Virus record (IMG/VR): IMGVR_UViG_3300027771_000090
Span: 1 to 25,577 of that record
Source of the DNA: a virus
Reading direction: 5' to 3' (one strand)
Length of the DNA stretch: 25,577 nucleotides
Part shown: positions 3,349 through 15,313 of the stretch, piece by piece
Numbering within the stretch: position 1 is the first letter of the stretch
How the letters are laid out: the number at the start of each line of letters is the position of its first letter
Made by a program: the position numbers and the translations under genes
Notes under the pieces: generated by a model
Seen by the model: only the letters and a program-made list of their open reading frames with translations
Database searches by the model: none
What the model was told of the DNA's origin: nothing

Positions 3349-3759
3349 ATGAAAAACATGATTTTAACAGTAGTATTGGCATGTGCAACTATTTTAGGTT
3401 CACAAGCACAAACAAAAGGCGATTGGTACATTGGTACTGGTGACGTAGCAAACGTAGCATGGACAGAATTGGCAGTTAGCCCAACTGTAGGTTACGGTGT
3501 AACAGATAAGTTGATGGTTGGCTTAGCAGTTTCACAAGCAGATTCAACAGTTGACGTATCATATAACTTACATGCAAGATATTTTGTAAAGGGTTATTTC
3601 GTATACGCTGCAACAGCTGGATTAGATACTGAGACATTAAGTCTTGGTGTTGGTAGATTATTCACAATTCACAAAGGTATTTATATAGACCCAAAATTGG
3701 TTTATAATACTGGAGACAAGACTACAAACCTTACAATAGGGTTTGGTCTTAAATTTTAA
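3349..3759 (+). CDS. Secreted outer-membrane beta-barrel protein
   Basis: This encodes a 136-residue precursor. The N-terminus (MKNMILTVVLACATILGSQAQ) is a clear signal peptide with an SQA|Q cleavage site, a style frequent in Bacteroidota. The mature part alternates hydrophobic and polar residues in about eight short strands (VGYGVTDKLMVGLAV, YFVYAATAGL, LSLGVGRLF, YIDPKLVYN) and ends LTIGFGLKF, the aromatic C-terminus of an outer-membrane barrel. It resembles small OmpX/OmpW-like barrels. AGAAAGAG lies ahead of the ATG. A phage-encoded outer-membrane protein could block receptors against superinfection or alter the envelope; neither is shown. It sits alone with its own promoter motif and a repeat-rich leader. 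The alternative is a virion-attached secreted protein, which I consider less likely. Confidence 0.75.
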   Translation: MKNMILTVVLACATILGSQAQTKGDWYIGTGDVANVAWTELAVSPTVGYGVTDKLMVGLAVSQADSTVDVSYNLHARYFVKGYFVYAATAGLDTETLSLGVGRLFTIHKGIYIDPKLVYNTGDKTTNLTIGFGLKF

Positions 3760-4110: not shown

Positions 4111-4121
4111 TATCGGAATTC

Positions 4122-4131
4122 TATATTTATA
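4122..4131 (+). promoter_or_regulatory. Putative late promoter (TATATTTATA), copy 2
   Basis: This exact TATATTTATA lies between the intrinsic terminator and the first baseplate-module gene, ending 30 bases before the ATG at 4161. GGAG at 4150-4153 follows it. It is the best-placed of the five copies because a terminator directly upstream makes a new transcription start necessary. Confidence 0.65.
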
Positions 4132-4160
4132 GTATATGATAAAGATAATGGAGAAAATAC

Positions 4161-4532
4161 ATGTTTAATGACGAAATATTTGAAGGTAAAAGCTTTTCTG
4201 ACCTATTAAAGGAAATTCACACTAATTCTAAAAGGAAGGAAAAACAAATAAATTCATTGATTGCACAACTACAACCATTGGTTAAAAATATAACTGATGC
4301 AACTATACTAGTACCACTAATAAAGGATTATTTAGATGTTGGTATTAAAAATGACGATGCACTAATTAAAATGGCTGGTATAATACAGCGAGCTATGGTT
4401 AGATCAGAATCCGAAGGATCAGACTTTAATTTATCAGAAGATGAAAAAAAGCAGCTATTAGACACCGTTAAAACAACAAGTAAGGTTGAATGGGAAGAAG
4501 AGTCTAAAGTAAGCGATGCCAAGAGCAAATAA
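4161..4532 (+). CDS. Small helical phage protein preceding the hub genes
   Basis: This encodes 123 residues, almost entirely helical and charged, beginning MFNDEIFEGKSFSDLLKEI. It contains the segment VPLIKDYLDVGIKNDDALIKMAGIIQRAM and ends in an acidic, Lys-rich tail. I recognise the plan as a conserved hypothetical found next to baseplate hub genes in aquatic T4-like phages. Its position suggests an assembly or accessory role for the hub, but that is inference. GGAG with a seven-base spacer supports the ATG at 4161. Its last 17 bases overlap the next gene in a different frame. No membrane segment or catalytic motif is seen. Confidence 0.75.
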   Translation: MFNDEIFEGKSFSDLLKEIHTNSKRKEKQINSLIAQLQPLVKNITDATILVPLIKDYLDVGIKNDDALIKMAGIIQRAMVRSESEGSDFNLSEDEKKQLLDTVKTTSKVEWEEESKVSDAKSK

Positions 4533-6804
4533 TTCACGAAATAAAGCTGCAACATCAAGAATAACGGCTAATAAAACCCTAGATAGTAAAATATCTAAGG
4601 CTTTAGGACAATCGGCAGAAGTGGTGGATATTATTTTAGACCCAGGACATCCTGCCTGGTCACCATCAGAATTTCCAAGCAGAAAAATAGGTGATATATT
4701 AGCAAGACCACTATTAGAATTTAATAAGACAACTGATCAACTCCAATGGTATCACCCTTTATTTCCAAACTTTTTTGCTGGCTATCCGCTTATAGGGGAA
4801 ATACTACTACTAATTGAAGCTGCAGGAGAATCAACAACTAAATCATATGCTGGTAAAAACCTATATTATTTACCAAGTATAAATGTTTGGAACGATCCAA
4901 ATCACAATCAATTACCTGCATCAAGCTTTGATATAAACTTATTAAGTACAACCCCATCGGAAGCAGAAAACTGTAACCCTTCAGGACAGTTCACGGCAAA
5001 TCCAGGAACAGAACAAGAACCCGTAGATTTAACCCCAGCTCTTGGCAGAACGTTTCAAGATATGCCAATAATGAGATTACAACCATATGAAGGAGATGTA
5101 ATGTTTGAAGGCAGAAACGGCCAAAGTTTGCGGTTTGGTAGTACCTTTAAGACAGGACTGTCTCCTAATTTTTGGTCTGCTGGTGGAGTAAATGGTGATC
5201 CAATAACTATAATAAGTACTGGACACAGACCTGGAACAAAGGATAAAAACGAATCTGATATACCTATAGTAAACCATATAGAAGACCCAAACCAAGATGC
5301 CGCCATAATGTTTATGTGTAGTGGCAATAGTGTAGATCTTGAAACAGCGTCAGATAATTGGGACTCATATGAAGTAACTTATGAAGCTAACATTGAGAAA
5401 GAAAGAGAAGAGGCAGGATATTCTCCAACTCCTGCTCCTGATCCGTTTAAACCAAAACCAGCTGAAGAGGCTCCAGAAGAAGAAGAACCACCTGTAAAAG
5501 AAGATGAAGCTTGCCCTGAATGTCCAGACGGATCTATTCCTAAAAAAGATAATACTGGAGATTGTTTGCCATGTGAAAAACAATTAAAGGAAGAAAAAGC
5601 TAGAAAGGAATCTCTGGTTGCTGAAGAAAATAAAACGAAGGAGCATACCTGTGGATTGGATAGAAGTCTTAGTAAATCTTTATGTATGCAAATAGTAAAC
5701 GAGACAATTGCTGGTGGTGGTTCTAAAAAATATACAGATCTTGGTTGGATGGAAGAAAAGTGGAAACTAAAACCCGGAGGGTATTCCTCTGGTGGTGGAG
5801 AATGTTGGGTAGGTATACTACATTGGACAGGTAGATCTACTGAAACACTATATTATGGTATGGAAAAAGAAGGCTTAATTAAAAAGTACTGGCCAGATGT
5901 AGTTGAAATACCAAATGTTAATGCAGCTAAGGGCTGGTATTATGACGGTATTTATGCTGGAAAAACTGTAAATATAACATACGAAGTATTAAAAGACTTT
6001 TGTAAGCATGCAGGATATAAAGAATTAAATTACCCATGGTGGGCAGAAGCCATGCAAAGATACGTGAATAATTCTGGTGATGCAAGAAGATCACAAAGAA
6101 GAGGAGTATATGAAAAATTTGGATCAAAGGTAAAAGATATGAGTGCAAAGGCCGAAGCTGCTGGATATCCCCCATTCCAAACAGCTAGGGAATATGCAAT
6201 GTTGATGTTTCATTTGAATTCTTATGGTGCACCATTGCATTCAGATGATTTCTTTAAAGACCAAGAAAGTTGGGGTACAAAACTAAATTGGGATTCAGAA
6301 GAATTACTAAAAATATATTGTGGAGGAATGGTTAAGGGTAGATCAAAGGATGGTAACCAATCTGACACCCAACAAATAGCTTGCTGTAGAAGTAGGTGTA
6401 ATCTACTACATAAAAAATATCCACCTTGTAAATGTACCCTAGATCCCAATAACGTGCACTATAAACCATGGATATGGGGTGGATGTGGTGGACCTAGAAG
6501 ATCCAGCTTAGATGGTTCTGGTGGAACAAATAAGGATAATTGGCAAGGAGCTAAATGTACAGTAACAGAATATACAGGTCAAGGTGTTGGGGATGTTGCC
6601 CCACTCCCGGATGGATCTCCAGGCGAATGTGCAGACCCTAATTATGATAAAGGATTAGATGGATGGAAATGTATGAATCAAGACGATTTTTGTACATGGG
6701 CCACCGCATTCTTTAAAAATGTTAATAGGTCTTTTGGCTTTCAACAAAGCTTATCAAGTGAAGATAAGGAACTACTAACGGATAGAACAAGAAAGTGTGA
6801 ATAA
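4516..6804 (+). CDS. Baseplate hub/spike paralog A with degenerate lysozyme-like domain
   Basis: This 762-residue protein has a basic N-terminal tail followed by the OB-type/spike domain shared by three tandem genes (about residues 30-285; AEVVDIILD, PLIGE, DPNHNQLP, CNPSG, GRNGQSLRFGS, NGDPITIIS). An acidic Pro/Glu linker leads to a four-cysteine knuckle (CPECPDGSIP...CLPCEK, about 331-355). A lysozyme-like region (about 386-620) contains GILHWTG, comparable to GIIQWTG in paralog B. By eye, the catalytic Glu of B falls on an Ala here; the nearest Glu is E396 in VNE. The C-terminus is cysteine-rich (about 22 Cys in the protein) and lacks the terminal domain shared by B and C. Role: a virion tail-tip component, with lytic activity uncertain. 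The stop overlaps the next start as TAATG. Confidence 0.75.
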   Translation: MPRANNSRNKAATSRITANKTLDSKISKALGQSAEVVDIILDPGHPAWSPSEFPSRKIGDILARPLLEFNKTTDQLQWYHPLFPNFFAGYPLIGEILLLIEAAGESTTKSYAGKNLYYLPSINVWNDPNHNQLPASSFDINLLSTTPSEAENCNPSGQFTANPGTEQEPVDLTPALGRTFQDMPIMRLQPYEGDVMFEGRNGQSLRFGSTFKTGLSPNFWSAGGVNGDPITIISTGHRPGTKDKNESDIPIVNHIEDPNQDAAIMFMCSGNSVDLETASDNWDSYEVTYEANIEKEREEAGYSPTPAPDPFKPKPAEEAPEEEEPPVKEDEACPECPDGSIPKKDNTGDCLPCEKQLKEEKARKESLVAEENKTKEHTCGLDRSLSKSLCMQIVNETIAGGGSKKYTDLGWMEEKWKLKPGGYSSGGGECWVGILHWTGRSTETLYYGMEKEGLIKKYWPDVVEIPNVNAAKGWYYDGIYAGKTVNITYEVLKDFCKHAGYKELNYPWWAEAMQRYVNNSGDARRSQRRGVYEKFGSKVKDMSAKAEAAGYPPFQTAREYAMLMFHLNSYGAPLHSDDFFKDQESWGTKLNWDSEELLKIYCGGMVKGRSKDGNQSDTQQIACCRSRCNLLHKKYPPCKCTLDPNNVHYKPWIWGGCGGPRRSSLDGSGGTNKDNWQGAKCTVTEYTGQGVGDVAPLPDGSPGECADPNYDKGLDGWKCMNQDDFCTWATAFFKNVNRSFGFQQSLSSEDKELLTDRTRKCE

Positions 6805-9272
6805 TGGGAAGATCAGGAAATACACAAAATAAAACACAATTTGACAAGCCAGGAGCAGCGAATCGTTCGGCTGTATCTGCAGTAACTAAAATAATAGAAA
6901 CAGCAGAAGTTATAGACGTTGTAATGGATCCAAGTCATCCTAACTATTCCCCAGCATCTGGAATAGTTATTGGTGCAATCAAGGCTCGCCCTTTATCAAG
7001 ATTTAATAATCCTATAGAAAATTTATCATGGTATCACCCATACTTTTCTAATTTCTATACACAGTATCCGTTAATAGGTGAAAATGTTGTATTGATAACG
7101 GCTGCTGGTAAGGGTAATTCAATAAATCCAAATTTAGACGAAAAATACTATTTACCACCTATTAATGTTTTTCAAGATGCAAATCACAACCAAAACCCTG
7201 GAATAAGTATAAGTAAGCCTCTAGATCCAAGCGAGGCAGAAGACTGTAATCCCTCAGGGCAATACACCTCTAACCCTGGGACAGAAAAAGAAGAGGATCC
7301 AGAAGCTGTAGAATTAGGAAAAACCTTTGAAGCAAAAGAGTTAATAAAAATATTCCCATATGAGGGTGATACTGTATTAGAAGGTAGATTCGGGCAAAGC
7401 ATGAGACTTGGAAGCACATCTAAGTTTGCTGATACTCCAAATTATTGGTCAAGCGAGGGAAAAAATGGAGATGCAATAACAATAATAAGTAATGGCCATA
7501 GTGTACCTGAAGATTCTGAATTCCACTTAGAAGATATTAATAGAGATTCCGCGGTTATAATGTATTGTGAGGGACAATTAATACCTATTTTGGTTGCTTC
7601 TGAGTTGTGGGATTCTTACGGGGTAACTTTTGAAAGAAAGGAAGCAGAACAAAAAGCTTTGGATTTTGTAAATGATAAAGAAATGGAAAAACACCCAGAA
7701 ATAGACATAAACATGGAGGAAACCGGAGGAGAAAATAAAGATGATGCTTGTGAAGACGGTTATGTAATGGATGAGGATGGAGAATGTGTTGAGGAGCAAA
7801 ACGTAGAGAAAGAAGAGGAATTCGAAGCAAATACAGATGTAAGAGGAACAGTTAAAAATTGTTGGGATGCAGATGAAGCAAATGGTAACGATGAAAGAAA
7901 ATCACTACTAAAAGAAATGGTTGATGATTTAGTATCAAATGGTGCAACCCCTGAAGGTGCATGTGCAATAATTGGAAATGCACTTGCTGAAGGAGCTGGA
8001 CCAGTATGTAATTCTCCAGCAAGCAAGGATCCAGGAGAGGCAGTTAAATCTTCATTAAGAAATTTAGAAAAATGGAGAACTGGTAATAAAATAAAGTCAA
8101 ATCAAAACGCATATTGGAACGGAACAAAAACAACTGAAAGAGGAGGTAAAGTATGTGATCAAGGTTGTTGGTGCGGTGTTGGTGCATTTGAGGTAGATAC
8201 GGTATATCCATTAGACGGTAAAAAATATGGACCAGGCCAAAGCTCCCAATATTCTAGATATTCCAATTGGCAAGGAGGAATAGGCATAATACAGTGGACC
8301 GGTACACGAAGAACCAAATTTGAAATAGCACTTGGTATACCAGCATATAATGACGGAACAGGTGGAATAATGTGGCCAAAAACTAGTATGGGTAAAAATG
8401 GAGGAGGAAAATGGAAAAATGATAGCCTTATTAAGGCTCCAACAGATATTAATTTCACACCAGCCCCACATAATAGAACAGCATATAATAGGGCAATAGA
8501 AACTGCAACATATAAGGGTAGTAAACCTGGACTAAACGCCCAATTAGTTTATGCAATGGAAGAAATGAGAACTAGAAATAATAGTGTATATGTACTAGTA
8601 ACAACAAGTAGAGATATAGGCAAAATAACACACGAAGTATATGCTAAATATGAAACTCCAACGTCGTATGTTTATGGTGGCCCAAATGGAAAAAGAAAAA
8701 AGTCAATATCGGATCATCCTAATCGTGGTGATACATATGAAGATTACTATAATTACTCAGTAAAAAAACGTACTGAAAATGCTGAAGATACACTTATAAC
8801 TTGGAAAGGTTTTCTTTTTGCCCCACCAATTCAACCAATTGAACCTAGTTCAACCTTAACACCAACCGTACAACCAATACCTGTAGTTATAGGGAGAGCT
8901 GACGGTCACACTGAGATTGAAGTATATAAAGGCCTTATTATAGCCCAAGAAGATACTGCTGAAGACGATTATAGTGAAATAAATGATAATCCAGCAAGTT
9001 ACTTTTTTAAAGTAGAAAATAGTTTTTTACCCCACAGTGGATTAGATGGTATAGAAGATAAAGCCGGTTTTTTAGAGAATATGACGAGAAATGGTGGACC
9101 TATGAAATATCAGTTACAAACAAATATAAGGAGTGCACAATCCATACCGCATATAGAAGCTAACAAAACTTTTCCAAGATCAGCACCATTTGGAGCAGAC
9201 GGTTATTTATTTGCAATAAAAAAAGCAATAGACGAAGAAATTGAAACTTGGATAGAAGACGAGAACTTTTAA
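6804..9272 (+). CDS. Baseplate hub/spike paralog B with phage tail lysozyme domain
   Basis: This 822-residue protein has the same N-terminal domain as A and C (about 30-275; AEVIDVVMD, PLIGEN, YYLPPINVF, GRFGQSMRLGS, NGDAITIIS). It has a degenerate two-cysteine version of the knuckle (CEDGYVMDEDGEC, about 315-330). A domain matching the phage tail lysozyme plan (about 350-650) carries GACAIIGNALAEGAG with the likely catalytic E396, and GIGIIQWTGTRRTKFE near 491-507. It should cut peptidoglycan during injection, like the lysozyme in T4 gp5. A Pro/Thr-rich linker leads to a C-terminal domain of about 115 residues shared with C (IEDKAGFL, SIPHIEANKTFPR, LFAIKKAIDEEIE). It has no Shine-Dalgarno sequence; translation is probably coupled to A through TAATG. 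Confidence 0.82.
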   Translation: MGRSGNTQNKTQFDKPGAANRSAVSAVTKIIETAEVIDVVMDPSHPNYSPASGIVIGAIKARPLSRFNNPIENLSWYHPYFSNFYTQYPLIGENVVLITAAGKGNSINPNLDEKYYLPPINVFQDANHNQNPGISISKPLDPSEAEDCNPSGQYTSNPGTEKEEDPEAVELGKTFEAKELIKIFPYEGDTVLEGRFGQSMRLGSTSKFADTPNYWSSEGKNGDAITIISNGHSVPEDSEFHLEDINRDSAVIMYCEGQLIPILVASELWDSYGVTFERKEAEQKALDFVNDKEMEKHPEIDINMEETGGENKDDACEDGYVMDEDGECVEEQNVEKEEEFEANTDVRGTVKNCWDADEANGNDERKSLLKEMVDDLVSNGATPEGACAIIGNALAEGAGPVCNSPASKDPGEAVKSSLRNLEKWRTGNKIKSNQNAYWNGTKTTERGGKVCDQGCWCGVGAFEVDTVYPLDGKKYGPGQSSQYSRYSNWQGGIGIIQWTGTRRTKFEIALGIPAYNDGTGGIMWPKTSMGKNGGGKWKNDSLIKAPTDINFTPAPHNRTAYNRAIETATYKGSKPGLNAQLVYAMEEMRTRNNSVYVLVTTSRDIGKITHEVYAKYETPTSYVYGGPNGKRKKSISDHPNRGDTYEDYYNYSVKKRTENAEDTLITWKGFLFAPPIQPIEPSSTLTPTVQPIPVVIGRADGHTEIEVYKGLIIAQEDTAEDDYSEINDNPASYFFKVENSFLPHSGLDGIEDKAGFLENMTRNGGPMKYQLQTNIRSAQSIPHIEANKTFPRSAPFGADGYLFAIKKAIDEEIETWIEDENF
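9201..9272 (+). repeat. 3'-end repeat shared with paralog C (copy 1)
   Basis: The last 72 bases of paralog B, including the stop codon, align without gaps to the last 72 bases of paralog C at 11482-11553, with 58 identical by eye. It is a coding duplication that encodes the conserved C-terminal helix LFAIKKAIDEEIE and could support recombination between the two genes. Confidence 0.75.
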
Positions 9273-9273
9273 T

Positions 9274-11553
9274 ATGGGAAGATTTAAAAATTCAAAAAAT
9301 AAAAGTAAAAGTAGCAAAAGAAAAAGTAATGCTAAATCAAGACAGCCAACAGCAACTGCAAACAAGTCATTTGCCTCAGCAGAAGTTATAGATGTAGTAT
9401 TAAATGATGAGCACCCAAGCTACAATCCAGCAGCATTTATTAATATAGGGGCAGTAAAGGCTAGGCAATTAAAGGCAGAGTTTGGTGTACCAGATGATAC
9501 ATTACAATGGCATAATCCCTTATTCGGAACAGGTCTTTGGATTACTCCATTAATAGGCGAGATTGTACTACTAGTTGCAGCAGCAGGTAAAAAATCTCAG
9601 ACTGATAATAAGGTTACTGAACTATATTATCTTCCACCAATAAATATTTGGCAAGACCCCAACCACAACCAATTGCCGGGATCAAGCTTCATGATAAATT
9701 CAGGGACAGAAACAGATGAAACCTCAGAAGCTGAAGATTGTAATCCATCAGGCCAATACTCTGCAAACCCTGGAACAGCAAGAAGTGAACTGCCAGTAAT
9801 ACCCTTGGGTAAAATATTTGATGAAAAAACTGTACAAAAGCTTTTTCCTTATGAGGGTGATATTCTATCTGAAGGAAGATCAGGACACAGCATAAGATTT
9901 GGTAGTACTGTCAAAAATACTGAATATCCTAATTGGTGGTCTACAACTGGAGAAAACGGTGATCCTATAATTATTATAAGTGATGGCCACTCCCCAACAG
10001 GTGGGGAATTTACTATTGGTGAAACTACATATGATAACCCCTACAAAATAGAAGATCCAAATAACGATAGTGCTGTTGTAATATTAACACATTCTCAAAC
10101 TATACCAATTGAAATATCGTCTACTATTGGTAATAATATACGACAAGATTCTTATGGTAACTCCCCGTCAAATAAAAAACAAGATGCAACTAAGTTAGAC
10201 TATAAAAAGAGAGTAGATGATAAAGAAGCAAATAATGAACCTATAGAGGTAAATGATAGGGATCAAGATGTTTTAGAAGATGAAACTTCTTGTCCTGAAT
10301 GTCCAGATGGATCTATTCCTGAAAAAGACTCAGGTGGTGTATGTTTACCGTGTGAAAAGGAAAAAGAATCAAATTCTGATGATGAAGAAATAACAGATGT
10401 TGTTATAGGTGGATATATGGCCCATGAAGTAGCTGGAAGACAAGGCCTAGGTTGGTCTGAGGATACTCCACAAGGTTCATATGGTACAAGTAAACCTAGT
10501 GCACAACCTAGAGAAGTTGAAACAGCTTGTAAAAATTATCCTGGGGATTTAACTGGTTTAAATGTTATACTTTCATCGGGTTTGGAAAATTTCTTTCATT
10601 CAGTAATTATACATGTAAACGAAATGCTTCCAGCATATAAATTGACAAAACTAAAGTATGATGGTACATTTTCACGAAGTATTCAACCTAAAGATATATT
10701 TGATAAACTTACACAAGATTTAGTTATTGATAGAACAAAAAATAAAGATTTTGACATAGATAATCCTCTAGATTATTCAGATTGGAACACTAGTCAACCC
10801 TTATCCAATATGACGGCTCAATTCACTAAAACACTACAAGATTATGCTACTGCTGGAGGAGATAATAGAGAAGGCAATAGTATTCTTATTGCTATGGATA
10901 TCCTAAAAGAAAGAGGTGCAACATCTATAAAGTTATTAGGGGTAGGAGATTATTGGTTAAATACCCACGGATATGCAGACCGCAATTTATTTTTACAAGA
11001 ACAAGCTGATAAAATAGATATATGTACATTTGTCGGTGGATTTGAACAAAAAAAATCAGGACATGTTCGTGGAGGAGAACCTGCAGATATGGGAGCATAC
11101 AGAGAACAAATAAACGGACAAGGGGTACCCCCAATAACAACCCCACCCCCAACAGCAAAGAAAAAATCAGGGTATGAATTGTATTACGAAAAGGTAGATA
11201 CATATAAAGGCTTTCATATTTGGCAAAGTCTAGACGCAGTAGAAACATATAAAGGTGATACGTGGGATGAACCTGCAGACTATCATTTTAGACTTCAACG
11301 AAGCTTTGAGGCTGATCCTGGTTTAAATGGTATAGAAGATAAGGAAGGATTTTTATCATCTGCACTAGAAAGTGGTGGAGGAATGTCATACCAACTGAGT
11401 TCTAATATAAGAACAGGCCAATCCGTCCCACATATAGAAGCTGGAAAAACTTTTCCAAGAAAGGATCCATTTAGTGAAGGTGGTTATTTGTTTGCAATAA
11501 AAAAGGCAATAGATGAAGAAATTGAAGATTGGATAGAGACTGAGTCTATCTAA
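9274..11553 (+). CDS. Baseplate hub/spike paralog C with SGNH-hydrolase-like domain
   Basis: This 759-residue protein starts with a strongly Lys/Ser-rich tail, then the shared domain (about 28-290; AEVIDVVLN, PLIGEIVLL, YYLPPINIWQDPNHNQLP, GRSGHSIRFGS, NGDPIIIIS). The four-cysteine knuckle (CPECPDGSIP...CLPCEK, about 338-362) is nearly the same as in A. The central cargo (about 425-625) is unlike those of A and B. It begins with a strand ending in VILSSG (S434/S435), contains a helix, then IKLLGVGDYW, and later CTFVGGF with H597 in GHV. That order resembles SGNH/GDSL esterase-like folds, with a Ser near the first strand and a late His; the catalytic Asp is not obvious. The C-terminal domain is shared with B. 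The start follows the B stop as TAATATG, without a Shine-Dalgarno sequence. Confidence 0.78.
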   Translation: MGRFKNSKNKSKSSKRKSNAKSRQPTATANKSFASAEVIDVVLNDEHPSYNPAAFINIGAVKARQLKAEFGVPDDTLQWHNPLFGTGLWITPLIGEIVLLVAAAGKKSQTDNKVTELYYLPPINIWQDPNHNQLPGSSFMINSGTETDETSEAEDCNPSGQYSANPGTARSELPVIPLGKIFDEKTVQKLFPYEGDILSEGRSGHSIRFGSTVKNTEYPNWWSTTGENGDPIIIISDGHSPTGGEFTIGETTYDNPYKIEDPNNDSAVVILTHSQTIPIEISSTIGNNIRQDSYGNSPSNKKQDATKLDYKKRVDDKEANNEPIEVNDRDQDVLEDETSCPECPDGSIPEKDSGGVCLPCEKEKESNSDDEEITDVVIGGYMAHEVAGRQGLGWSEDTPQGSYGTSKPSAQPREVETACKNYPGDLTGLNVILSSGLENFFHSVIIHVNEMLPAYKLTKLKYDGTFSRSIQPKDIFDKLTQDLVIDRTKNKDFDIDNPLDYSDWNTSQPLSNMTAQFTKTLQDYATAGGDNREGNSILIAMDILKERGATSIKLLGVGDYWLNTHGYADRNLFLQEQADKIDICTFVGGFEQKKSGHVRGGEPADMGAYREQINGQGVPPITTPPPTAKKKSGYELYYEKVDTYKGFHIWQSLDAVETYKGDTWDEPADYHFRLQRSFEADPGLNGIEDKEGFLSSALESGGGMSYQLSSNIRTGQSVPHIEAGKTFPRKDPFSEGGYLFAIKKAIDEEIEDWIETESI
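11482..11553 (+). repeat. 3'-end repeat shared with paralog B (copy 2)
   Basis: This is the second copy of the 72-base 3' end described at 9201-9272. Differences are mostly synonymous until the last eight codons, which indicates selection on the protein after duplication. Confidence 0.75.
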
Positions 11554-11575
11554 ACACTTAAAATACATATAAAAC

Positions 11576-11585
11576 TATATTTATA
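11576..11585 (+). promoter_or_regulatory. Putative late promoter (TATATTTATA), copy 3
   Basis: This exact TATATTTATA lies in the short gap after paralog C, ending 21 bases before the ATG at 11606, the closest spacing of the five copies. CGGAG lies between it and the start. It gives the needle gene a transcript independent of the hub genes. Confidence 0.6.
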
Positions 11586-11605
11586 TATGTATCGGAGAAT
11601 AATAT

Positions 11606-11995
11606 ATGGCATATGCACCAATTCCACCAGCAGAATACGCTGGTAAACAAGTACTAATAAGCTCAAATAGAATACTATTTAATGCTAGAACTGACTCTGT
11701 TTTTCTGTTTTCAGAAAAATCGGTTGGTATATCTACAAACGGAACCTTTAATGTTGACACTGGTGAAGATACTATAGTAAATAGTCCTGCAATTTACCTA
11801 GGTTTAGAGGCTGAAGAAAAAATGGTATTAGGTGACACCCTTGTTGCATTAATAGAAGAATTATGTGATGCACTTGCTAAGGAAACACATCCAACACCAA
11901 ATGGACCATCTGGACCACCAATAAATGCCGCATCTTACTCATCAATTAAATCCAAGGCCAAATCAATATTAAGTGCCCAAAATTACACATTATAA
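11606..11995 (+). CDS. Beta-helical spike/needle-like protein
   Basis: This 129-residue protein has a middle section of short beta repeats: GKQVLISSNRILFNAR, SVFLFSEKSVGIST, GTFNVDTGED, IVNSPAIYLG. This is the pattern of the triple-stranded beta-helix that forms the gp5 C-terminal needle in T4 and of related spike proteins. It is followed by a helix (LVALIEELCDALAKE) and a Pro/Gly tail. In T4 the needle is fused to the lysozyme; here the three hub paralogs lack it, so this gene probably supplies it in trans as a homotrimer. GGAG at 11594-11597 supports the start. It has its own promoter motif. The needle call is by repeat pattern and position; a PAAR tip protein is less likely because no PAAR motif or metal ligands are seen. 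Confidence 0.65.
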   Translation: MAYAPIPPAEYAGKQVLISSNRILFNARTDSVFLFSEKSVGISTNGTFNVDTGEDTIVNSPAIYLGLEAEEKMVLGDTLVALIEELCDALAKETHPTPNGPSGPPINAASYSSIKSKAKSILSAQNYTL

Positions 11996-12984: not shown

Positions 12985-13431
12985 ATGGCAAATAGGGAAA
13001 TAATATCAAGCCCAGTAATAGACGACAATGAAGACATTGCTATTGGATTAACTTTACCATTTAATGGTGATGATAATGGGTTGTTTGAATTAAATTATTT
13101 CTCAATAGACCAAGCAATTGCAAATGTAAAAAACTTGTTACTTACTAGAAAGGGCGAAAGAATAAATCACCCTGAATTCGGTACGAATTTGCAAGATTAT
13201 TTATTTGAACCAAATTATCCTACATTACGAGAAAAGTGTGGAACAGAAATAACAGATGCAATAGAGCAATGGTTACCTTATATAGTAATAAAAAAATTAG
13301 AAGTAAAAATACCAAGCGACCAGGGCGGATTAGTTGATCCATTGCATGGAATATTGATTGCCTTAAGCATTGGTTTAATAAACAACACAATAGACGAAAA
13401 AGAAGTTGTACTAGAGATAAAGGAAATATAA
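12985..13431 (+). CDS. gp25: Baseplate wedge protein gp25
   Basis: This 148-residue member of the GPW/gp25 family has its landmark segment QAIANVKNLLLTRKGERINHPEFGTNLQDYLFEP, followed by a helix and IKKLEVKI. The EFG core is characteristic. In contractile tails gp25 sits in the wedge core, contacts gp6 and gp53 and helps start sheath polymerisation. T4 gp25 is about 132 residues, so the length fits. It is followed immediately by gp6, the usual order in T4-like cyanophages and their relatives, and shares the TAATATG junction seen elsewhere here. This is the best-supported family assignment in the window. Confidence 0.95.
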   Translation: MANREIISSPVIDDNEDIAIGLTLPFNGDDNGLFELNYFSIDQAIANVKNLLLTRKGERINHPEFGTNLQDYLFEPNYPTLREKCGTEITDAIEQWLPYIVIKKLEVKIPSDQGGLVDPLHGILIALSIGLINNTIDEKEVVLEIKEI

Positions 13432-13432
13432 T

Positions 13433-15313
13433 ATGGGCCAAAAATTACAAATAAAAGATGTAAATTATCTAAATTTAGACTTTAAAGGTTTTAAAGATAA
13501 GCTTAATACTTTTTCAAGTGTATATTTTCCAGATATTTCTAATGATTTTAATGAATCTTCTCCTGGCCAAATGTTTGTTGAAATGTCAGCATATGTTGGT
13601 GATGTTTTATCCTATTATATTGATAATTCTCTAAGGGAAAGTTTACTACTACATGCACAAGAAAGATCAAATGTGATGGATATATCAAAAGGATTAGGAT
13701 ATAAGCCATTAGCGTCTGCTCCATCTATGGTAGATTTAGATATTTATATATTGTTGCCTTCAAACGGTACCGGTAATGTTTCATCCCCAGATTGGAGATA
13801 TGCACCATTAGTTCAAGAAAATTTAGTTGCACAAACCAATGGAGAAGCTTCTCCATTTTTCACATTGGCACCAGTTGATTTTAGATATTCTAGCTCAATT
13901 GATCCAACCGAAGTATCAATATATAAAATAGATGGTGATGGAAACCCTGAAACGTATCTATTAAGAAAAAGTGTTACTGCAAAATCTGGTACAATAAAAT
14001 ATAAAAGTTTTAGTTTTCAAAACCCTAAAAAATACGATAAAGTAATTATAGGTGATAAAAACATTATTGAAATTTTAGATTGTAGAGACGGTGATGGTAA
14101 TCGTTGGTATGAGGTAGATTATATAGCTCAAAATTTAATATATGAAGAAACACAAAACACAAGAATAATAGATCCTGAATTTTCTCAATTTAATGAAGTC
14201 ACTCCGTATTTATTAAAACTAAGAAAAACTGGTAGAAGATTTACTTCAGACTTAAATGAAGAACTAAAAACCGTAATAAATTTTGGGGCCGGAAATTCTA
14301 ATATAGCTGATGAATTATTAATTCCTAATCCAGGAAATATGGGACTATCATTACCATATGGTAATATTTCTAATCTAGACAACGCATGGGATCCACAAAA
14401 TGCAATGTTTACTCGGGCGTATGGTCAAGCACCTGCAAATCAAATATTACAGTTTAAATATGTTGTTGGTGGAGGAATCAAAGATAACACAAGAGCAGGT
14501 ACAATTAGAGAGGTTACGTCTGTAAACTTTAATATGGATACTGATGGATTATCCGGACCAACAATACAATTTGTAAAAAAATCCATAGCAGTTAGTAATC
14601 CTGAACCAGCAACTGGTGGAAAAGGATTAGAATCAGTTGAAGAAATGCGACAAAATGCAATGGCATTCTATGCAGCTCAATCTAGAACAGTTACTAGAGA
14701 AGATTTTATTGCTAGATTGTATTCTATGCCTGCAAAATTTGGTAATGTTGCAAAGTGTTTTATTATACAAGATGAACAAATATCCCAGGAGACAGGAGCC
14801 GACTTGATAAATCCTCTAGCGTTAAACTTGTATATGTTATCATATAATCAAAGTGGCAATTTAACACAAGCAAACTCTGCAACCAAGGAAAATGTAAGAA
14901 ATTACTTAAGTAAATATAGAATGTTAACTGACGCAATTAATATAAAGGATGGTTTTATAATAAACCTTGGAATAAATTATTCTATAATACCTTTACCCGG
15001 TTATAATTCTAGTGAAGTCATATTAAAGGTAAATAGGGTATTGGCAAAAATATTTGATATTAGGAATTGGCAATTTAATGAGCCTATATTTTTAGCAAAC
15101 ATTGCAACCGAAATAGATAAGGTTGATGGCGTCCAGACTGCCCAATCATTAGATGTGTATTGTAAACACGAAGTAGGCAGTGGATATTCGGGCAATTTTT
15201 ATGACGTACGAGAAGCAACAAAAAATAAAATTGTTTATCCATCACAGGATCCTGCAATATTTGAAATAAAATACCCAGCAATAGATATTAGAGGAAGGGT
15301 GGTAACCTACTAG
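13433..15313 (+). CDS. gp6: Baseplate wedge protein gp6 (J-like)
   Basis: This 626-residue protein is close to the length of T4 gp6 (about 660). The N-terminus has the family pattern VYFPDISNDFNESSPGQMFVEMSAYVGDVLSYYIDNSLRES, cut here into FNESSPGQMFVEM and YVGDVLSYYID. A second block (MRQNAMAFYAAQSRTVTRED, about residues 405-425) is the baseplate-J-type core segment. gp6 dimers form the inner ring of the wedge and dock gp25. The gene starts two bases after gp25 with AAGGA upstream, and ends just before the strong ribosome site of the next gene. No gp53 homologue is recognisable nearby. Confidence 0.93.
   Translation: MGQKLQIKDVNYLNLDFKGFKDKLNTFSSVYFPDISNDFNESSPGQMFVEMSAYVGDVLSYYIDNSLRESLLLHAQERSNVMDISKGLGYKPLASAPSMVDLDIYILLPSNGTGNVSSPDWRYAPLVQENLVAQTNGEASPFFTLAPVDFRYSSSIDPTEVSIYKIDGDGNPETYLLRKSVTAKSGTIKYKSFSFQNPKKYDKVIIGDKNIIEILDCRDGDGNRWYEVDYIAQNLIYEETQNTRIIDPEFSQFNEVTPYLLKLRKTGRRFTSDLNEELKTVINFGAGNSNIADELLIPNPGNMGLSLPYGNISNLDNAWDPQNAMFTRAYGQAPANQILQFKYVVGGGIKDNTRAGTIREVTSVNFNMDTDGLSGPTIQFVKKSIAVSNPEPATGGKGLESVEEMRQNAMAFYAAQSRTVTREDFIARLYSMPAKFGNVAKCFIIQDEQISQETGADLINPLALNLYMLSYNQSGNLTQANSATKENVRNYLSKYRMLTDAINIKDGFIINLGINYSIIPLPGYNSSEVILKVNRVLAKIFDIRNWQFNEPIFLANIATEIDKVDGVQTAQSLDVYCKHEVGSGYSGNFYDVREATKNKIVYPSQDPAIFEIKYPAIDIRGRVVTY

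Follow-up and report, generated by a model that had tools for sequence, protein, structure and literature searches.

Three diverged, adjacent hub genes and a separate spike gene suggest a phage tail tip built from three different proteins

The window analyzed here, a 25.6 kb IMG/VR fragment from an uncultured phage (GC content 34%), encodes three complete, adjacent open reading frames on the plus strand, hub paralogs A, B and C (Table 1). We rejected the possibility that a frameshift or split has broken one gene into three because each reading frame is complete and has its own N-terminal domain (N-domain). The small gene overlapping the start of A has a near-identical counterpart in the related locus L004. 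Downstream, homologs of the baseplate wedge proteins gp25 and gp6 start 1.0 and 1.4 kb, respectively, beyond a separate spike gene. This gene order, with one hub gene, is repeated in Immutovirus immuto, a cultured Flavobacterium phage, and in Microcystis phage Mel-JY01. From Immutovirus, a Bacteroidota host may be guessed for the trio-bearing phages. Immutovirus gp115 (locus L099, 10978-12093), which lies between the hub gene and the gp25 homolog, is annotated as a RecN DNA repair ATPase; its sequence is Ala/Lys-rich and probably coiled-coil, and the RecN annotation looks doubtful.

Table 1. Features of the hub and spike region, with positions in the window
Feature	Position	Strand	Length or basis
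Promoter-like element TCTATATTTATAGT	4120..4133	+	core TATTTATA at 4124-4131, 29 nt before next start
Small gene overlapping start of A	4161..4532	+	123 aa; position and motifs as Immutovirus gp117
Hub paralog A	4516-6804	+	762 aa
A N-domain, OB-like (aa 1-281)	4516..5358	+	46% identity to C N-domain; A clade 99/96
A linker and cargo, invariant GGE(C/T)WxGILHWTG (E429, H436)	5359..6801	+	lysozyme fold matches at E>3 only
Hub paralog B	6804-9272	+	822 aa
B N-domain (aa 1-268)	6804..7607	+	50% identity to C N-domain
B tail lysozyme, Phage_lysozyme2 (PF18013)	7911..8321	+	Pfam E 4.5e-9; predicted catalytic Glu396
B C-terminal tail domain, common with C	8925..9269	+	hhalign 96.3%, E 1.5e-9; cargo HMM cross-hits
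Hub paralog C	9274-11553	+	759 aa
C N-domain (aa 1-285)	9274..10128	+	structure model, fold matches
C cargo, degenerate, SGNH-hydrolase-like	10390..11115	+	block I GDS to GGY; fold match 2hsj
C C-terminal tail domain, common with B	11191..11550	+	hhalign; cargo HMM cross-hits
Promoter-like element ACTATATTTATATA, C-spike gap	11574..11587	+	TATTTATA distribution; directional intergenic enrichment
Separate spike gene, β-helix-like	11606..11995	+	129 aa; homologous to C-terminal half of fused hubs
gp25-like baseplate wedge protein	12985..13431	+	PHROG 261, E 4.6e-17
gp6-like baseplate wedge protein	13433..15313	+	PHROG 219, E 2.4e-16

The three proteins share an N-domain of ~280 residues with 46-50% identity, after which their sequences diverge. 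With residues 1-284 of C as the query, the N-domains of B and A are matched with E values of 3.6e-73 and 5.6e-72, respectively. The motifs AEVxDxx, PLIGE, D(P/A)NHNQ, CNPSGQ, EGRxGxSxRxGST and NGDxI follow one another in the same order in each. The initial annotation had described three tandem paralogs with a common N-terminal domain and the same ordered motifs, and it is borne out on both points, all of the motifs that it listed being present. Beyond the N-domain, the linkers of A and C contain a Cys-rich repeat, CPECPDGSIPxKDxxGxCxPCEK, that is present in reduced form in B and is possibly metal-binding or disulfide-bonded. A C-terminal tail domain of ~80-110 residues is common to B and C and absent from A.

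Neither Pfam nor PHROG has a model that matches the N-domain. Searches of the PDB sequences with profiles of this domain, and of A, B and C, retrieved nothing useful, profile comparison of the fused hubs of relatives (see below) with T4 gp5 by hhalign gave no match, and no sequence relation to gp5 or VgrG was found in the profile searches. An AlphaFold (AF2) model of C has a mean pLDDT of 61 overall and about 80-93 over residues 31-120. It contains strands at residues 33-41, 61-65, 78-82, 96-104 and 115-119 in an OB-like arrangement, followed by a second β region (residues 197-272). The best Foldseek match of this model is a 207-residue P1 baseplate chain (E 2.5e-3, probability 0.93), and lower-ranked weak matches (E 0.1-1) are OB proteins and, from two contractile injection systems, VgrG-like chains. 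Thus, the OB/spike fold proposed in the initial annotation agrees with the weak Foldseek matches obtained for the C model and with the gp25/gp6 synteny, whereas sequence comparison with gp5 and the PDB lends it nothing. We regard the assignment of the N-domain as a gp5/VgrG-like, OB-like hub domain as good but not conclusive.

The initial annotation overlooked the spike gene, which is part of the same structure. An iterated HMM built from this reading frame matches the C-termini of most complete fused hubs, that is, hubs of relatives in which N-domain and spike are one protein, with E values of about 1e-26 to 1e-42. The spike segment carries a GPSGPP motif close to its end and shows weak, sub-threshold similarity to DUF2345, the VgrG β-helix family, in 4 of 32 fused hubs. 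The spike is fused to the hub at 183 single-copy loci and separate at 19, and it is separate in every three-copy locus ("trio") with the downstream region covered. The hubs of some single-copy relatives with a separate spike contain a peptidase M15 domain (VanY in L018 and L098, Peptidase_M15_3 in L037). By eye, an M15-like domain fused to the hub in L037 appears in L074, L064 and L077 as its own reading frame between hub and spike, an apparent example of cargo detachment.

Profile scans of viral contigs recovered at least 589-591 relatives of the N-domain; a pattern scan of bacterial and archaeal genome contigs found none with the patterns used. Copy number was assessed with 234 distinct N-domain sequences: the domain is present once at 223 loci, three times at eight and twice at none, some of the single-copy loci being cut by contig ends and the trio contigs being fragments. 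Another trio is L007, whose third copy extends into L183, the neighboring locus of its contig, and two further loci, including that of Immutovirus, give split partial matches only. The picture is the same among loci flanked on each side by at least 3.5 kb (83 one-copy, three three-copy) and among whole records (24 and six of 30), the single-copy records including LR756508 (484 kb) and Mel-JY01 (190 kb).

In a tree of 104 rows, the A copies form one clade and the C copies another; the B copies also form one clade, save for the B copy of L017/L096, the placement of which is ambiguous. The triplication is thus older than all known trios. All of them descend from it, and the one-or-three pattern essentially records this single event and its retention rather than a series of independent ones. 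Between trios, the N-domains have diverged down to 47-56% identity, with no copy lost and no sign of gene conversion among A, B and C. What the loci record is that this lineage swapped one hub gene for three diverged copies that always occur together, with the spike moved to a separate gene.

We consider it probable that A, B and C form one obligate heterotrimeric hub, which replaced an ancestral homotrimer and sits on a homotrimeric spike. The paralogs could instead mix randomly or form separate homotrimers, giving mixed virions or alternative tips as a form of bet-hedging across hosts or envelopes. Homologous N-domains with 46-50% identity could still cross-assemble, and the cargo that follows them differs by slot (A, B or C) and is swapped in L017. 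Against this, the copies have cleanly diverged, A and C as separate clades, and separate homotrimers would leave most virions without lysozyme. The retention of every copy in every lineage makes facultative alternative tips unlikely: losses and two-copy genomes would be expected, but the order A-B-C is constant, all three copies are kept in every trio genome and a two-copy state is never seen. We therefore judge this family of explanations unlikely, and the alternative tips for different hosts envisaged in the initial annotation are disfavored.

Another arrangement would place the paralogs at different sites of the baseplate, with one true hub on the spike and the others in peripheral positions or in stacked rings. 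It is common for a single fold to recur in several rings of a phage baseplate, as with the tube-like folds in P1 (PMC12810830). This arrangement appears distinctly improbable, since all three paralogs keep the whole N-domain, including EGRxGxSIRxGST ... EDxNxD, the stretch that leads into the spike of fused hubs, and since the two-copy intermediates that it predicts are not seen.

The organization of the operon is also consistent with an obligate heterotrimeric hub. In all trio genomes, the A/B and B/C junctions measure -1 to +11 nt, and the gap between C and the spike gene is 44-62 nt; where a single hub gene is followed by a separate spike gene, the gap is mostly -1 to 12 nt. The element TATTTATA lies in the C-spike gap of all 8 trio loci and is missing from the corresponding gap in all 18 single-hub loci that encode the spike separately. 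Across the trio loci, 30 of 45 TATTTATA sites are intergenic, against 3.8% of the DNA, and the nominal p value of this enrichment overstates the case because the loci are related. In the reverse orientation there is no such enrichment (1 of 20 sites intergenic). At most sites in the trio loci, 19-38 nt separate the element from a start codon. This strand bias and spacing suggest that TATTTATA is a promoter element. The sites in the window, at positions 876, 3225, 4124, 11578, 12459 and 22681, mostly lie 19-42 nt before gene starts. The late promoter box of T4, TATAAATA, is the reverse complement of TATTTATA, and a role as a late promoter of this phage group is possible.

In six single-hub relatives, TATTTATA occurs upstream of the hub operon (save where that gap lacks one) and after the spike, and never between hub and spike. 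The extra site in the trios would therefore allow expression of the spike to be uncoupled from that of A, B and C. This is in keeping with a requirement for three spike chains for each A:B:C set, although the extra site may do no more than restore expression of a spike gene that lies behind a 7 kb operon.

The cargo domains differ markedly in how readily they can be assigned. The lysozyme domain of B scores 37.1 bits against the curated Pfam cut-off of 28.2. Its Glu396 (codon 7989-7991), which we take to be the catalytic glutamate by reference to phi29 gp13, lies in a GNxxxEG motif that is found in 8 of 8 trio genomes, L017 included, and the residue is invariant in our alignment (A6). B thus looks like an active tail lysozyme, which would be its role as cargo.

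The cargo of A gave no matches against Pfam, PHROG or PDB sequences, and neither a Phage_lysozyme2 profile match nor the corresponding catalytic glutamate was found in it. A model of A has only Foldseek matches with E≥1 in the PDB, among them several lysozymes, and two relatives in BFVD. Profile comparison of A with the B lysozyme revealed a common ten-residue VGIxxWTG motif and nothing further that could be aligned, and the idea that the A cargo is a diverged copy of the B lysozyme was rejected as unsupported by this comparison. A lysozyme-reminiscent fold is a hint only, from the model; some activity is possible because Glu429 and His436 are invariant.

The cargo of C has no Pfam match and looks SGNH-like from one weak Foldseek match, to the SGNH protein 2hsj (E 0.097, probability 0.47), and from its block pattern. 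Of 7 sequences, L004 alone has the block I nucleophile serine, as GAS; block I reads GGY in the window and either GDA or GGY in the remaining five. The degenerate domain probably has a binding or structural role. In L017, an A-type cargo occupies slot C and, because the cargo of this slot differs in that one lineage, the cargo is swappable and the three N-domains are not.

Of the cargo labels in the initial annotation, the tail lysozyme of B holds and the SGNH-like label of C stands by its weak fold match, whereas A matches no enzyme family. Its suggestion of muramidase and esterase activities together is unsupported because the C nucleophile is lost in 6 of 7 sequences and A lacks an enzyme family; an enzyme family together with a catalytic glutamate is found in B only. 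The absence of an enzyme family for A and C, and the degenerate appearance of the latter, would also suit a scenario in which the extra copies share no structure and are either duplicates, recent or redundant, or enzymes that stay outside the virion. This explanation seems very unlikely, given the deep parallel conservation of A, B and C across the trios, N-domains that in trio genomes are usually more conserved than the cargo, and a coupled operon beside the wedge genes.

T4 gp5 is a homotrimer encoded by one gene that comprises the OB domain, the lysozyme and the β-helix. The locus described here resembles it in the predicted N-terminal OB-like domain, the lysozyme cargo that follows, the β-helix-like spike and the adjoining wedge genes. 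It differs in having three diverged hub genes and a separate spike in place of one gene, and its lysozyme belongs to the Phage_lysozyme2 family and is carried by one of three subunits, with no detectable sequence relation to gp5. Evolved VgrGs are likewise paralogous spike subunits with differing C-terminal cargo. In VgrGs, hub and spike are fused in each paralog and the number of paralogs varies, whereas the locus described here has its spike in a gene apart and, in the trios, always three paralogs. VgrG heterotrimers were reported to be functionally required in V. cholerae and were tested in A. dhakensis, where the authors conclude that several effectors are needed, not a heterotrimer as such (PMC8668125). 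A heterotrimeric VgrG is drawn as one configuration in a review (PMC10433429), and work in Serratia argues against such a complex, since VgrG1 was not co-purified with VgrG2 (PMC4924876).

Among phages, T4 gp5, P1 gp5 and gp25 and gp15 of Anabaena phage A-1(L) are homotrimers (PMC12810830, PMC10966104). P1 has a tip protein, UpfC, and a trimeric, T4-gp5-like spike, gp5 (PMC12810830). The P1 baseplate chain that best matches the C model may be gp5, which differs from the hub proposed here in being a homotrimer and in having no lysozyme domain. Immutovirus immuto (NC_055915) gp116 and Mel-JY01 WWT39504 belong to the same hub family and share the gp25/gp6 synteny, and differ in having one hub gene with a fused spike and no enzymatic cargo. 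In the open literature searched, the phage hub and spike structures found are homotrimers, no heterotrimeric phage hub or spike is reported, and the phage heterotrimers described are wedges, tube-end or accessory proteins.

For the heterotrimeric hub, we envisage an ancestor with one protein of ~400 residues, consisting of an OB-like N-domain and a β-helix spike, present in three copies per virion. The spike would have split off as its own gene, which could remain a homotrimer, and the N-domain gene would have gained C-terminal cargo and been triplicated. As the copies diverged, each would have come to fill one position of the ring and the cargo would have become position-specific, with the tail lysozyme on B, the lysozyme-reminiscent domain on A and the degenerate SGNH-like domain on C. 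An intertwined β-helix presumably forms best from three identical chains, and an OB-like ring may tolerate diverged subunits. The single tightly coupled operon would supply A, B and C at about 1:1:1, and the spike, needed in three copies per virion, would be made from its own promoter-like element, restoring the A:B:C:spike stoichiometry of 1:1:1:3 that we infer.

The heterotrimeric device put forward in the initial annotation thus gains indirect support from the one-or-three copy number, the absence of losses, the split spike and the trio-specific element, the complex itself being our reading of these patterns. A strict slot-signature test found no column that is invariant within each slot yet differs between slots, so no interface signature can be claimed. 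For the more detailed version, a position-specific A:B:C hub on a homotrimeric spike with one arm bearing a recognizable catalytic residue and two non-enzymatic arms, we put the chances at about even.

If this architecture is correct, the puncturing device of a phage can lack symmetry and be assembled from modules, so that a tail bears one enzyme rather than three. It would also be a natural case of the transition from homomer to heteromer by gene triplication, with the spike split off under its own promoter, for which the single-copy relatives, including the cultured Flavobacterium phage, represent the ancestral state for comparison. No Pfam or PHROG model corresponds to the hub family itself, of which well over 200 distinct members were retrieved. 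Tail-like injection devices that display three different cargoes in a fixed ratio are a possible design.

Two other genes of the window merit mention. The product of 3349-3759 (136 residues) has a signal-peptide-like start and weak likeness to outer-membrane β-barrels (DUF5777, E 0.007; OMP_b-brl, E 0.03), and a counterpart is kept in L004 at 706-1116; it is perhaps a phage-encoded outer-membrane-like protein with a role in superinfection exclusion. The 1613-residue product of 17820-22661 matches no family and has tblastn homologs in Immutovirus, Mel-JY01 and LR756508, and it appears to be a large tail protein that is conserved among these phages.
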